Shown one piece after another: positions 8,743 to 57,534 of a stretch of 64,000 nucleotides of DNA; position 1 is the first letter of the stretch, and the number at the start of each line of letters is the position of its first letter. The DNA is taken from contig JAHDQO010000007.1 of NCBI GenBank assembly GCA_018433765.1, positions 124,001-188,000 of the forward strand, read 5' to 3'. A program made the position numbers and the translations under genes. This DNA is from Tissierellales bacterium. GTDB taxonomy: Bacteria; Bacillota; Clostridia; Tissierellales; Sedimentibacteraceae. Under the pieces are notes generated by a model that saw only the letters and a program-made list of their open reading frames with translations, made no database searches and had not been told where the DNA came from.

Positions 8743-9264
8743 TTAGAGAAGCTTTTCTCCCTCCTGCCAATCAATGGGACAAAGTCCTCCTGTTTTAAGT
8801 GCTTTTAGCACTCTTAATGTTTCGTCTACAGATCTTCCTACATTTAAATCATGGATAACCGAATACCTTATTACTCCTTCTGGGTCAATTATAAATAATC
8901 CTCTAAGTGCAATGCCCTCATCTTCTACTAATATACCGTAATTTTGTGATGCCTGCTTAGTTATATCTGATGCTATAGGAAAGTTTACTCTTCCTAAATC
9001 ACTATTAATCCAAGCTTTATGAGAATGTTCACTATCTACGCTTACAGCTAATACTTCAGCACCTACCTTATTAAAATCTTTAACTCTTTTACTATAGCCT
9101 GTAATTTCTGTAGGACAGACAAAAGTAAAATCCAATGGATAAAAAAACATTACTAGCCATTTACCTTTATAATCTTCTAACTTAACTCTACTAAACTTTG
9201 TACCTTCTCCGTTAACTGTTGCCATGTTAAAGCATGGTGCTTTTTTTCCAACTAATCTTTCCAT
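8743..9264 (-). CDS. 2-Cys peroxiredoxin (AhpC/Prx1 type)
   Basis: 173 residues. The peroxidatic Cys50 is in DFTFVCPTE, with the family Arg in IALRGLFIIDPEG and a resolving Cys162 in GGLCPIDW. It reduces hydrogen peroxide and organic peroxides in the cytosol with electrons from a thioredoxin- or AhpF-like reductase. It is slightly shorter at the C-terminus than typical AhpC. The start has a GGAGAG-type site a few bases upstream. It stands alone between a terminator and a spore-protein gene. The window holds a second, divergent paralogue at 56492 with TGA in place of the Cys codon. Confidence 0.93.
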   Translation of the reverse strand: MERLVGKKAPCFNMATVNGEGTKFSRVKLEDYKGKWLVMFFYPLDFTFVCPTEITGYSKRVKDFNKVGAEVLAVSVDSEHSHKAWINSDLGRVNFPIASDITKQASQNYGILVEDEGIALRGLFIIDPEGVIRYSVIHDLNVGRSVDETLRVLKALKTGGLCPIDWQEGEKLL

Positions 9265-13046: not shown

Positions 13047-14012
13047 TTATCTTAACCCTGCTGCTACTAATGTATTATATTGATGTTCTTCATCTCTTTG
13101 TCCATCTATGTGTCTCGTACTGTTTGGAAAGTGTATATCAAAATGACCGTTAGCACCATTTCTATAGAGGTATTGTATATCATGAGGCATACAGCTTGCG
13201 GAAGCGGCTATCTTCCTTCCATTATATAATATTAATACAGGTCTTCGTTCCCAGCTGAATTCTCCTTCCCATATGTTTTTCATAATCTGTGTATCTTCAT
13301 TTGAAAGTGGTTCACAATCTGCATGATTGGCACCTATAGTTCTTTTCATGTTCCAAGTTTTACCAGTTTTCAAATCTTTAACAGTGAAAATCGAATTAAT
13401 TGGTAAAAGATATTGAGCTTCTTTCCACCAATCTAGAAATTCACCATAATTATTTGATCTAGTATATTTTTTATTTGAATAGTACTGAGGTATTAACAAC
13501 TTTTGTCCAACTGTCAAGTATGAATTTAAAGACAATTTATTAACTTGTACAATATCATCTTGTGTTACACCATATTTCATAGAAATTGACCATAAAGATT
13601 CTCCCGAATGTACTGTATGAGTAATATTATATTTTTTTTCTTTTAAACTAGAAAATGGTATGTATAGTACTTCTCCAACTTCTATGTAATCACTAGTATA
13701 ATTATTTCTAGTTTTTATTTCATTAATTTCTATTCCAAACATATTACTAATTTTCCAAAAAGTATCTCCACTTTTTACTACATATAAAACATCTTGATTT
13801 TCTAATTCAGGAAGCGATATTTTGGAACCAGCATAGATATTGTTAACATTTTTAATATTATTTATTGATATGATTTTATTAAGTGAAATGTTATATTTAT
13901 TACTGATTTTCCATAGTGTATCGCCTTCTTCAATCTCATACATTACATTACCAAACGCTAGAGTTGTAGATAAAAATAGTAAAGTTAAAACTATAGTAAT
14001 TATTTTCTTCAT
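13047..14012 (-). CDS. Secreted protein with three LysM domains and an HFxIHF-type C-terminal domain
   Basis: 321 residues. A signal peptide (residues 1-~21, MKKIITIVLTLLFLSTTLAF) is followed by three LysM repeats (YEIEEGDTLWKISNKYNI, YVVKSGDTFWKISNMFGI, HTVHSGESLWSISMKYGV) that bind peptidoglycan outside the membrane. The C-terminal ~125 residues contain KTWNMKRTIGANHADCEP, MPHDI and GHFDIHFPNSTRH then DGQRDEEHQ. The HFxIHFxNSxTH pattern recurs at the end of clostridial LysM proteins (from memory), and its His/Asp residues look like metal ligands, but I know of no assigned activity. Probable role: cell-wall or spore-cortex remodelling. Confidence 0.82.
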   Translation of the reverse strand: MKKIITIVLTLLFLSTTLAFGNVMYEIEEGDTLWKISNKYNISLNKIISINNIKNVNNIYAGSKISLPELENQDVLYVVKSGDTFWKISNMFGIEINEIKTRNNYTSDYIEVGEVLYIPFSSLKEKKYNITHTVHSGESLWSISMKYGVTQDDIVQVNKLSLNSYLTVGQKLLIPQYYSNKKYTRSNNYGEFLDWWKEAQYLLPINSIFTVKDLKTGKTWNMKRTIGANHADCEPLSNEDTQIMKNIWEGEFSWERRPVLILYNGRKIAASASCMPHDIQYLYRNGANGHFDIHFPNSTRHIDGQRDEEHQYNTLVAAGLR

Positions 14013-25143: not shown

Positions 25144-25199
25144 GAATATATATAAGATTTTTTATTCATATACATTCCTCCCACCGAAGACGTAATATT

Positions 25200-25345
25200 A
25201 TCTTTTAGGCAGGTCTCCTGGCTCATGCATCATTCTCCTTCTATCCTTCCCAGTCTCCCAGTGGAACATAAGAATTTGTCAGCATTTACAGTAGCGGGGG
25301 CTGCAGTGGGTTTTAACCACTTTCCCTATTATGTATAAAACACCT
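25200..25345 (-). ncRNA. Cobalamin riboswitch (aptamer)
   Basis: The minus strand reads AATAGGGAAAGTGGTT, GCAGCCCCCGCTACTGTAA, and ends with GAGCCAGGAGACCTGCCT. These correspond to the conserved 5' block, the CCCGCNACTGT core and the B12 box of the cobalamin aptamer, in the right order and spacing. A Rho-independent hairpin follows at 25127-25143. Adenosylcobalamin or a related corrinoid should reduce expression of the downstream importer. Confidence 0.95.
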
Positions 25346-25608
25346 AAAAGAGATTTTGTTTTGTATCAAAATAATAACACATATGCTTTTTGAAAGCAAT
25401 AGATTTTTAAGCGCTGAATTTAAATGTGTTGAAATTAAAATATTAGTTTATCTTTTTTTCTTACATGTTATAATATTGTACATAAAACTAAATATATATA
25501 AAATAATAATAAAAACAGTCGAAAAAGCAACTAACAATTAACAGTAAATTATTAGTAGAATAATGCTTTCTAGTTATATTGATAAAACATGAAAGGATGA
25601 AATTAAAT
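25346..25608. other. Intergenic region between riboswitch and folC
   Basis: AT-rich DNA that must hold the promoter of the riboswitch transcript (minus) and of folC (plus). An open frame of 61 codons at 25356-25541 has no ribosome site and low complexity, so I do not call it. Nothing else stands out. Confidence 0.4.
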
Positions 25609-31499: not shown

Positions 31500-31577
31500 A
31501 AAACACCTCCTCTAACCAGTCTCGCCATAGCAGGTACTAAAAGTTTTTAACCTGTTCTGAGCGGCTGCCTACGAAAT
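31500..31577 (-). ncRNA. Ribosomal protein L21 leader
   Basis: The minus strand reads GTAGGCAGCCGCTCAGAACA, a hairpin CAGGT/ACCTG, then CTATGGCGAGACTGGTTAGA leading into the rplU ribosome site. This agrees with the L21 leader motif known upstream of rplU in Bacilli and Clostridia, thought to allow autoregulation by L21. Boundaries are approximate. Confidence 0.85.
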
Positions 31578-46364: not shown

Positions 46365-47081
46365 ATGAATGAATATCATAAAAACAACAATGAAAATAAA
46401 GACAGAATTTATATTGCAGATATGAAAGTATGTGATGTTAATGGTGATTGTATACCTGATATAGTTTGGATTTTAGGAAAGAAAATTTATGAAGACTCCC
46501 CCTTATTAGTGGATCTTACACTTAGGATAAGATGTGGAAAAACTTGTAATGTTAATGATTATCCTCTAGCCTTTGATGCAGGTATTAATCCAAAATTATT
46601 TTTAGGAGATTTTACTGGTGATAAAATCTGTGACATACTAGTTTCAATTCCTACAGGTGGTAGCGGAGGATATATATATAATTACTTATTTTCTTATGTG
46701 AATAATGTCTTAACTCCACTTTTTGATGCTGAAATGTTTAATCAAGGTATACCTTTAGAAGCAGAATTTGATGATTGCTATAAGGTTAGAATTTATAATG
46801 AAAATTTAGGAATTAATTTAACACTTGATGTCAGTACTATTTCAAATATAGATGAATTATACGATAAGAATGGAAAGCTAATCTCACCTACTTCTGGTGA
46901 AGTATTAGCTTTAGGAGGACTGTACCCAATTGATATGGACTTTGACAACATTTTTGAACTTGCATCTATACAAAGAGTTATTGGAAGATATAATGCTGAA
47001 ACTTTAGGATATGTAAGAGCAATATGGAAGTTTTATGATAATATACTAAATCTAGAAAGAATAGAAGTTGTAAGCTACTAA
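46365..47081 (+). CDS. FG-GAP/VCBS-repeat-like protein
   Basis: 238 residues. Two Ca-loop-like repeats are seen: VCDVNGDCIPDIVWILGKK (~20) and LGDFTGDKICDILVSIPTGG (~82), with a third degenerate one, PIDMDFDNIFELASIQRVIG (~195). These resemble FG-GAP/VCBS beta-propeller blades. There is no signal peptide, which recalls similar Bacillus and clostridial proteins of unknown role, possibly spore-associated. The start at 46365 follows AAAGGA by 9 bases; two earlier in-frame ATGs overlap that site. Confidence 0.75.
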   Translation: MNEYHKNNNENKDRIYIADMKVCDVNGDCIPDIVWILGKKIYEDSPLLVDLTLRIRCGKTCNVNDYPLAFDAGINPKLFLGDFTGDKICDILVSIPTGGSGGYIYNYLFSYVNNVLTPLFDAEMFNQGIPLEAEFDDCYKVRIYNENLGINLTLDVSTISNIDELYDKNGKLISPTSGEVLALGGLYPIDMDFDNIFELASIQRVIGRYNAETLGYVRAIWKFYDNILNLERIEVVSY

Positions 47082-55540: not shown

Positions 55541-56368
55541 TTAGCAAAAGATTTTTTTTATTTCGACTGCCGCACCTAAATTATTATTATCATATTGGGA
55601 AATTTTATCAGCTGCTTCTTTGATTTTTTTTGTTCCATTTTTCATAGCTATACCTAATCCAGAATTAGTTATCATTTCAATATCATTATTATCATCACCA
55701 ATAGTAACTATTTCTTTAGATTTTATTCCTTTCAAACTTGCATACTGTTTAATCGATTCCCATTTGCATCCATTTTTATTCATATATTCAAGAATCGCTC
55801 GTATACTCAAATTGCGTGAACATGTAGAGTTAAATAAACTACCGTATTTATTTTTCATTTCATTTTCAAAGCTTTCTAATTTTTTATAATCACCTAGATA
55901 GCAAACAGAAAGTATATTATTAAAAGTATGATTTTTAAAATCAATAATTTTATATCTTTTGTTTTTACTCTTCATATAGCCTAAATAGTTATTATTTTCA
56001 ATGTCATGTTCGATTATTATATCATAATCATTATTATATTCATTTACATGTATTATCGGATGTAAAGACTGTTTTTTACCTTCTTCATATATTTTTATAA
56101 AAGTATCATAATCAAGATATTTTTCATATATAATATCTTCTGTAACTGAATTTCTAACTATGCATCCATTATTAGCCATAATAATTTTATTAATTTTCAA
56201 TTTACTTGTTAATAACTTAGATTCAAAATAATTTCTACCTGTTGCAATAATTATTATTACACCTTTATTATATATTTTTTCTATTATTTCAACTGTATAA
56301 TCATTTATTTCTTTCTTATCATCTAATAAAGTTCCATCTAAATCAAATACAACCATCTTATAATTCAT
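55541..56368 (-). CDS. HAD-superfamily (Cof-type) phosphatase
   Basis: 275 residues. Motif I MVVFDLDGTLLDDKKEI with the nucleophile Asp, motif II IIATGRNYFES and motif IV VTIGDDNNDIEMITNSGLG fit the Cof/IIB subfamily, which hydrolyses sugar phosphates or flavin and nucleotide phosphates. The substrate is not predictable. The start at 56368 or a nearby in-frame ATG is uncertain; AAAGGA lies 12 bases before it. Confidence 0.9.
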   Translation of the reverse strand: MNYKMVVFDLDGTLLDDKKEINDYTVEIIEKIYNKGVIIIIATGRNYFESKLLTSKLKINKIIMANNGCIVRNSVTEDIIYEKYLDYDTFIKIYEEGKKQSLHPIIHVNEYNNDYDIIIEHDIENNNYLGYMKSKNKRYKIIDFKNHTFNNILSVCYLGDYKKLESFENEMKNKYGSLFNSTCSRNLSIRAILEYMNKNGCKWESIKQYASLKGIKSKEIVTIGDDNNDIEMITNSGLGIAMKNGTKKIKEAADKISQYDNNNLGAAVEIKKIFC

Positions 56369-56491
56369 ATCAATATTAAATCCTTTCATTTACTCAATAC
56401 TAAAATTCTTTGTCAATATCTGATTTTATGAATAAATTAAACTATAAACATAAAAAATTAATATCTATATTATCTACTTGGAGGTAATTAA

Positions 56492-57169
56492 ATGTTTTCA
56501 CAAAACAAGTATATACCTTATTATAAGGTAAAGGCTGATAGTTTGTACAGTGATAATAAAATAAAAAAGCAGTTTCCAAATGATATTATTCAAGAATGCT
56601 ACTGCAATTATTTTGAGCTTGGCAGTAAAGCTCCTAATTTCACACTCATGGGAGTTGTCAATAATATGCCTGAAGAAATAACGTTAAGCAATTACATTGG
56701 AAAATGGGTACTTATATTTTTCTACGGTTCTGATTTTACATTTGTTTGACCAACAGAATTAGCAGCAGTTGCTGAAAGGAAAAATGTTTTTGATTCTATT
56801 AATACTCAGATATTAGCTATAAGTACCGATAGTATTTATTCTCATAAAATTTTCTTAAAAACATCTCAATCAGGTCAGAAAATAAACTTTCCTGTATTAT
56901 CTGACAGAACTCAAAAAGTATCTAAACACTACGGTGTGTTAAACGAAAGTGAAGGATTTGCTTATAGAGGTTCTTTCATAATAGATCCTGAAGGAAAAAT
57001 CAGTGCATGGATGACATATCCTCAACCAGTAGGTAGAAATATTGATGAACTTATAAGAGTTATAAAAGGACTTCAATTTAATGCATCTACAGGTAAAGGT
57101 GCTCAAGCAGGATGGACTCCAGGAAACCCCGGTATTCCACTGGGATGGGAATATGTAGGTAAGTATTAA
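56492..57169 (+). CDS. Peroxiredoxin, probable selenoprotein (UGA at the peroxidatic position)
   Basis: 225 residues if TGA at 56747-56749 (codon 86) is read as selenocysteine. Before it: GKWVLIFFYGSDFTFV; after it, in the same frame: PTELAAVAERKNVF and FAYRGSFIIDPEGKISAW. The paralogue at 8743 has DFTFVCPTE at this place, so TGA replaces exactly the catalytic Cys codon. A hairpin 12 bases after the TGA (AGCA 56761-56764, loop GCAGT, TGCT 56770-56773) fits the bacterial SECIS pattern, with G first in the loop. No resolving Cys is found in the C-terminus (GKGAQAGWTPG), suggesting a 1-Sec enzyme or use of the N-terminal ECYC (Cys36, Cys38). GGAGG precedes the ATG and a terminator follows the TAA. 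Confidence 0.88.
56761..56773 (+). promoter_or_regulatory. Candidate bacterial SECIS hairpin core
   Basis: AGCA / TGCT stem with the 5-base loop GCAGT, extendable by U-G and U-A pairs. The apical loop begins about 16 bases after the UGA and starts with G, in line with the general bSECIS rules (spacing of roughly 16-37 bases, G in the first two loop positions). Confidence 0.55.
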
Positions 57170-57204: not shown

Positions 57205-57534
57205 TTATTCTTCATCTTCTACTAGTTTATAATATGCATCAGCTGCTTTTTTATACTCTTCATCATCTTCTATTAAAACTAATTCTCTTCCTTCACCATT
57301 ATCTGGTTCATATCTGTATATGAATACTTCATCTTTGTTCTCAGGTAATAGAATCATATACTCCCTGTCTTCTACTTCATAGGTACCTATAATCTCACAT
57401 GGAAGTTCTGTATCATCTTCAAACACTACGTTTACCATTTGAGGTTCTTCTTCACCACAACAGCAGTCATCTATTTCAGGGTCACATTCATTAGTTATTT
57501 TGTCTTCATTTTCTTTATTATATTGTTCTTTCAA
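57205..57534 (-). CDS. DUF1292 family protein
   Basis: 109 residues, very acidic. VNVVFEDDTELPCEIIGTYE, YMILLPENKDEVFIYRYEPD and LVLIEDDEEYKKAADAYYKL are the DUF1292 domain, found in most Firmicutes without known function. The N-terminus has an extra Cys cluster (CDPEIDDCCCGEEEPQ), not usual for the family as I know it. The start is TTG with AGGAGG 5 bases upstream. Confidence 0.88.
   Translation of the reverse strand: MKEQYNKENEDKITNECDPEIDDCCCGEEEPQMVNVVFEDDTELPCEIIGTYEVEDREYMILLPENKDEVFIYRYEPDNGEGRELVLIEDDEEYKKAADAYYKLVEDEE

Follow-up and report, generated by a model that had tools for sequence, protein, structure and literature searches.

A selenoprotein peroxiredoxin subfamily without the active-site proline and with signs of sporulation control

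The locus and its in-frame TGA

The window, the whole stretch of 64,000 nucleotides analyzed here, comes from a Tissierellales bacterium and carries on its plus strand, at 56492-57169, a Sec-peroxiredoxin gene of 225 codons plus TAA. Its ATG at 56492 is preceded by GGAGG, its TAA ends at 57169, and codon 86 is a TGA (56747-56749). The earlier note had described a frame running on for 139 codons past this TGA to the TAA, and we found the same 139 open codons. When the protein was read through the TGA, the Pfam AhpC-TSA model matched residues 44-171, spanning the TGA, at 4e-36 (124.1 bits for a gathering score of 26). Comparison with the paralogue at 8743-9264 (minus strand) also bears out that the TGA aligns with the Cys of its DFTFVCPTE motif, that is, with the peroxidatic position. 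Frame length by itself is unremarkable: the window holds 8 TGAs flanked on both sides by 60 or more open codons. What makes the gene real is the homology on both sides of the TGA, together with the 12 orthologues.

Upstream, a short intergenic region (56390-56491, plus strand), the presumed promoter, is shared with a divergent HAD-type hydrolase gene (55541-56389, minus strand), a homologue of which adjoins in 8 of the 12 loci. Downstream lies a DUF1292 gene (57205-57534, minus strand) with a homologue nearby in 7/12 loci. No known spore gene is found among the conserved neighbours identified. A sigma-70 scan returned 10 sites for 4.9 expected, an uninformative count as it includes both strands and the gene body. 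The terminator announced in the earlier note can be seen by eye as an inverted repeat (AAGCCTT/AAGGCTT, then T's), but the terminator scanner made no call. Elsewhere in the window, on the minus strand, we noted a cobalamin riboswitch (25191-25362, 113.5 bits) and an L21 leader (31508-31576, 36.4 bits for a gathering score of 36).

The proposal that this UGA encodes selenocysteine had been tied to the presence of sel genes, and the host's own genome (4.19 Mb, 38 contigs) contains all four: selA (637.5 bits), selB (402.1), selD (400.4) and the tRNA-Sec gene selC (68.5 bits) lie on one contig, and selD itself carries a TGA. AhpC-TSA matches number six in this genome. Exactly one in-frame TGA is found in each of three of them, namely the window gene, a canonical PrxU gene and a PrxQ/BCP-like gene. 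At E<=1e-20, only three genes came up in the host genome: that of the window, the PrxU gene and the AhpC-type paralogue.

Two further observations concern the same genome. The PrxQ/BCP-like gene (L002, 1486-2358 of contig C13) has its in-frame TGA in SGUTIEAEGF and is directly followed by an ORF that we take to resemble desulfoferrodoxin; the two possibly form one superoxide/peroxide operon. On contig C32 (L005), a minus-strand frame contains GFGUGGPRLGL and is presumably a HesB-like selenoprotein. The HesB-like family is named in the selenoprotein table of a recent review (PMC13188914).

Conservation of the UGA codon and of a SECIS-like hairpin

In the order of the host, the gene was detected in 12/249 genomes including the host (E<=1e-38), the other proteins being 62-71% identical to that of the window. 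A thirteenth member, L092, comes from another order; it was found after the alignment and the tree were made and is in neither. The corresponding searches covered 391 genomes drawn evenly from the class and 6 genomes of the order of L092 (both at E<=1e-70), and in the latter order 1/6 genomes has the gene. A scan of genome contigs gave a sole locus, L079, whose protein is identical to that of L056 and was not counted again. None of the other 26 genomes of the host's own family has an orthologue, the best identities at E<=1e-20 being 45% or less; the window copy is isolated within its family, and its terminal branch, at 0.39, exceeds all others in the subfamily. A phage, plasmid or viral origin was considered and rejected, as every match was below 60% identity and one further search gave none.

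The TGA is kept at the catalytic position in 13/13 members. No Cys-containing version of the subfamily was found among 27 genomes (E<=1e-20), 249 genomes (E<=1e-38), or the sets of 391 and 6 genomes (E<=1e-70), these sets being partly overlapping. Decay of the homologues past the TGA, which the earlier note had named as a finding to look for, is not seen: the relatives are intact downstream. For five member pairs, dN/dS after the TGA ranges from 0.05 to 0.155, with dS above 1 in three pairs, for which the ratios are rough. From these comparisons, the codons downstream of the TGA are under purifying selection.

Bacterial SECIS elements are hairpins located just downstream of the UGA, whose apical loop carries a G among its first bases. 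A SECIS-like hairpin, CAGC[AGUU]GCUG, occupies 56763-56774 (plus strand), 13 nt after the UGA. Silent sites and pairing were counted in 10 of the 12 members, one of each near-identical pair being omitted. The pairing of this hairpin, in which the G is second in the loop, is kept in all 10 aligned relatives (40/40 cells). The earlier note had placed the G first in the loop. That register can form, and no other fold of the short window stretch is lower in energy, but it pairs in 88.3% of cells; the pairing conserved throughout is the one at 56763-56774. Silent sites in this region are nearly frozen: codons +6 and +7 after the TGA are identical in 10/10 lineages and codons +5 and +8 in 9/10, for a pairwise codon identity of 0.42-0.44 expected from pooled usage at codons +5 to +8. 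Out of 182 ten-codon stretches, the ten with the greatest silent excess all begin between -2 and +7. In L059, two silent changes turn one A-U pair of the hairpin into G-C; this single compensatory change is suggestive, the covariation being weak when taken alone (55/500 shuffles equally good). The folding of 56747-56800 alone is likewise unremarkable (z = -0.53). The host's own PrxU gene (L003) has the same 12 hairpin bases at the same distance from its UGA.

Taken at the level of sequence, these results establish that an AhpC/TSA domain, intact and under selection, carries a UGA at its peroxidatic position, and that a conserved SECIS-like hairpin and a full Sec machinery accompany it. The sel genes, the intact homologues, the hairpin and the comparison with PrxU all support the selenocysteine reading of the earlier note, and residue 86 of the window peroxiredoxin is almost certainly Sec. 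Were the UGA a true stop, as in the mechanical ORF listing that terminates the frame at 56749, the gene would be an 85-residue dead fragment; alternatively, TGT or TGC could have been misread as TGA. With 13 genomes sharing this TGA, an error of sequencing is very unlikely, and with selection downstream and the sel machinery present, both versions are extremely improbable. Just as hard to credit is a general reassignment of UGA to Trp or Cys, in favour of which we found no point. Against it, the host has tRNA-Sec, selA and selB, and the UGA sits at the catalytic Cys/Sec site; moreover, in L092 a UGA directly follows the conserved VGKY end, where the other members stop, and UGA therefore seems to act as a stop there.

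Relation to PrxU and active-site chemistry

The earlier note had suggested a comparison with PrxU proteins. The best NCBIfam model for the window protein is indeed PrxU (NF040737), with 178.1 bits, under its cut-off of 270 bits. All 12 members are hit by this model (best E 1.1e-57), and none of them is among the hits that it makes at E<=1e-60 in genomes of the order. PrxU above the cut-off was found in 54/249 genomes of the order, among which are 3 of the 12 member genomes. We built a tree of 55 rows, comprising the 12 members and 43 of 48 other peroxiredoxins (L030, L036, L042, L047 and L062, duplicate or badly framed, were omitted). All subfamily members cluster on a single branch (100/100), distinct from the PrxU branch (100/99) and from the AhpC type. 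The comparison thus upholds the assignment to Sec peroxiredoxins, but the protein is not an ordinary PrxU: plain membership was rejected given the score below the cut-off and the separate branch, and we hold with high confidence that the subfamily is distinct.

Several other peroxiredoxins deserve mention in their own right. In L071 (genome G042), a 2-Cys peroxiredoxin of the AhpC type has Sec while retaining its C-terminal Cys (GGLCKAGW); in the tree it lies among the Cys forms, and its use of Sec therefore looks like a separate event. The family of the host is rich in peroxiredoxins with a CxxWYxCF-type tail, and in L043, L044, L045, L046 and L049 the peroxidatic Cys is replaced by Ser or Ala; these five may have a structural rather than a catalytic role, perhaps as coat proteins. 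The Microcystis phage MaAM05 (MW495066.1, 40499-40990) has a gene annotated as a selenocysteine-containing peroxiredoxin, prxU, whose product is 40% identical to the window protein.

The active site of the subfamily reads GxxxTxxU: Thr and Sec are present, and the Pro of the PxxxTxxC/U motif is replaced by Gly in 12/12 aligned members (Gly79 in the window protein, codon 56726-56728, plus strand) and also in L092. The Pro is kept in 45 of the 46 other peroxiredoxins scored (47 rows without L047, L062 being unscored), the exception being L023, a PrxU row. The motif PxxxTxxU is called highly conserved in Sec peroxiredoxins in the 2026 review (PMC13188914), and our search of the open-access literature for a Pro-to-Gly peroxiredoxin active site found none. 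As judged from the alignment, the window protein is a predicted AhpC/TSA-family peroxidase with a variant active site, in which the full PxxxTxxC(U) motif is not present.

The earlier note had also reported that the C-terminal resolving Cys is absent, and alignment with solved 2-Cys peroxiredoxins and with the 12 members agrees. The position is Ala204 in the window protein (codon 57101-57103, plus strand) and Ala or Val throughout the 12 members, and L092 has no Cys there either. The same note had seen in an ECYC pair of the N-terminal extension a possible sign of unusual recycling. The pair is there, as C36 and C38, but it is not conserved and fails as a general resolving mechanism: C36 does not recur, and C38 recurs in 8/12 members, mostly in a YCDYF context. 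A resolving role of C38, the second Cys of the pair, through a selenenylsulfide bond to Sec86 would draw on the recurrence of this Cys, which lies 48 residues before Sec. Its absence from L053, L055, L057, L060 and L092, among which L057 and L060 are entirely devoid of cysteine, makes this improbable for the subfamily, although C38 could act in this way in the members that possess it.

As no resolving cysteine is conserved, an outside reductant is inferred, and the protein is probably a 1-Sec enzyme, a chemistry predicted from its residues. The Sec86 selenolate would attack the peroxide and give a selenenic acid, which a thiol from outside the enzyme, be it thioredoxin, a small thiol or some other protein, would then reduce.

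N-terminal extension, promoters and the spore

The N-terminal extension of the window protein (56492-56614, plus strand) has 41 residues, among which are 6 Tyr besides C36 and C38, and richness in tyrosine is seen across the subfamily. Tyr makes up 14.6-27.8% of the extensions of the 12 members vs 3.3-5.4% of the remainder of the proteins, the window extension being the least Tyr-rich (14.6%). For PrxU, six extensions starting at the first in-frame Met contain 0 or 1 Tyr. A Pfam search with four of the N-terminal extensions returned no coat family and only a weak match to RteC (0.18).

We then looked at the upstream regions. The strict pattern, AC-N16/17-CATANNNTA, uses the exact sigma-K consensus strings and spacing; it was adjusted post hoc at the -10 element (first base C to C/A, third N to A/T), giving AC-N16/17-[CA]ATANN[AT]TA. 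The AC of the -35 element is that given for sigma-K in PMC3789822. Control promoters came from 129 nearby genes, 5 of which matched the adjusted pattern, and 125 were left after dropping 4 that touch a member gene. The adjusted pattern was found upstream of 8/12 members vs 5/125 control genes (p = 2e-7), and the strict one upstream of 4/12 vs 4/125 (p = 0.002); for L052, the upstream stretch ends after 66 bases at the contig end. L092, examined once the pattern was fixed, has a strict AC-N17-CATANNNTA match (8/8). When near-identical species were counted once, the lineages including L092 gave 7/11 for the adjusted pattern (p = 1.6e-6) and 3/11 for the strict one (p = 0.012); without L092, the strict pattern was found in 2/10 (p = 0.06 vs the 129 controls). 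In the PrxU upstream regions, the adjusted pattern was found in 0/8 (8 of the 9 PrxU-branch rows, L023 being left out).

We also scanned the 11 orthologue regions for the pattern followed by a Shine-Dalgarno sequence and an ORF. This combination occurs 9 times, 8 of them before the Sec-peroxiredoxin gene. The same scan of the window gave four matches at three genes, and the Sec-peroxiredoxin gene is not among them: the region upstream of it shows no convincing sigma-K site, its best score of 6/8 being the commonest among control genes. For the window's own gene, the late-sporulation reading consequently rests on the relatives. Two of the four matches lie upstream of a LysM protein gene (13047-14012, minus strand) that scores above the SafA/ExsA coat assembly cut-off, and one lies upstream of a patatin gene. 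The last precedes 46365-47081 (plus strand), which encodes a protein of 238 residues with no Pfam or NCBIfam match and is a candidate sporulation gene.

The distribution of spoIVA was compared with that of the subfamily. spoIVA is present in 12/12 member genomes vs 79/237 others of the order (p = 3.5e-6, for genomes that are not independent). The genome of L092 (G378) has it too, which makes 13/13, as do the other 5 genomes of that order, which lack the Sec-peroxiredoxin gene. At the family level, the 6/6 member families are among the 15/19 with spoIVA, which is not significant (p = 0.18). Among the PrxU genomes, spoIVA is found in 31/54 and missing in 23/54, vs missing in 0/12 member genomes (p = 0.003, three genomes belonging to both sets).

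These data bear on two readings. In one, the protein is an antioxidant of vegetative growth: a divergent PrxU, reduced by thioredoxin, would clear H2O2 from growing cells that meet air and would have no special link to the spore. It draws on the first rank of PrxU among the NCBIfam models and the match of that model to all 12 members, on the hairpin identical in sequence and distance in the host's own PrxU, on a window promoter that is not sigma-K-like, and on the lack of significance of the spoIVA association at the family level. Weighing against it are the unmet PrxU cut-off, with no member at E<=1e-60, the separate 100/100 branch, sigma-K-like patterns in most members and in none of the PrxU regions, Tyr-rich N-termini absent from the six PrxU examined, and the PrxU genomes that do without spoIVA when no member genome does, three genomes being shared. 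We consider this vegetative reading somewhat unlikely. The other, that the selenoprotein is a one-selenocysteine peroxidase of late sporulation, is the explanation that we favour as reasonably likely when taken as a whole. For the subfamily, promoter patterns and gene distribution make a sporulation role fairly probable; for the window's own gene, the chances of such a role seem evenly balanced.

According to the late-sporulation reading, sigma-K would switch on the subfamily gene late in sporulation, the tyrosine-rich N-terminus would anchor the enzyme in the spore coat, and the enzyme located there would remove, or use, the peroxide of coat assembly, as the peroxiredoxin domain of CotE may do. 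In a bolder version, which we regard as quite doubtful, the selenoenzyme of the spore coat would do more than remove the peroxide of coat maturation: it would spend it on oxidising and cross-linking other coat proteins via their thiols or tyrosines. The Sec peroxidase is cysteine-poor, in some members cysteine-free, has a tyrosine-rich tail and lacks a conserved partner thiol; coat proteins could supply its electrons. If the cross-linking version were true, selenium supply would be a determinant of spore quality.

Comparison with known systems

Sec peroxiredoxins are already known, and the first term of comparison is PrxU, reportedly described by Soehling in 2001 from Eubacterium/Peptoclostridium acidaminophilum. 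The subfamily shares with PrxU (NF040737) the AhpC/TSA domain, the Sec at the peroxidatic position, an N-terminal extension, the 12-base hairpin (in the host's PrxU) and, as far as the aligned PrxU rows go, the lack of a C-terminal resolving Cys. It differs in that the window protein is only about 40% identical to PrxU, falls below the PrxU cut-off and lies on a separate branch. PrxU keeps the active-site Pro (except in L023) whereas the subfamily has Gly, and the N-terminus is Glu/Lys-rich in PrxU and Tyr-rich here. The subfamily also has a GWEYVGKY-type C-terminus and, in most members, sigma-K-like promoters. With AhpC and typical 2-Cys peroxiredoxins (8743-9264; Prx1/Prx2/tryparedoxin peroxidases), it has in common the core domain, the Thr and Arg, and the TFV-C/U-PTE stretch; it differs from them by Sec in place of Cys, by the lack of a resolving Cys and by the change of Pro to Gly. 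Mammalian GPx4 in sperm is a selenoperoxidase able to act with protein thiols in a cross-linked structure; it belongs to another family and serves as an analogy only.

As a precedent for the spore reading, CotE from C. difficile comes closest: its N-terminal domain is described as resembling a 1-Cys peroxiredoxin that may reduce the H2O2 that comes from SodA-mediated coat cross-linking (PMC5853579), and cotE has a mapped sigma-K promoter (PMC3789822). By this description, CotE and the subfamily would share a 1-Cys-like peroxiredoxin domain and perhaps, for most members, control by sigma-K, the coat location being proposed here by analogy; CotE is a 1-Cys protein with a chitinase domain, which the subfamily lacks. 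Our searches of the open-access literature, by titles and abstract openings, turned up no link between a selenoprotein peroxiredoxin and spores, and passages of PMC10536192 have no bearing on it. If the spore link holds, the use of selenium extends to endospore formation. The subfamily is besides a natural test of whether Sec tolerates the loss of the active-site proline. What is new compared with the known Sec peroxiredoxins is a subfamily without this Pro and without any conserved cysteine, which bears signs of sporulation control.
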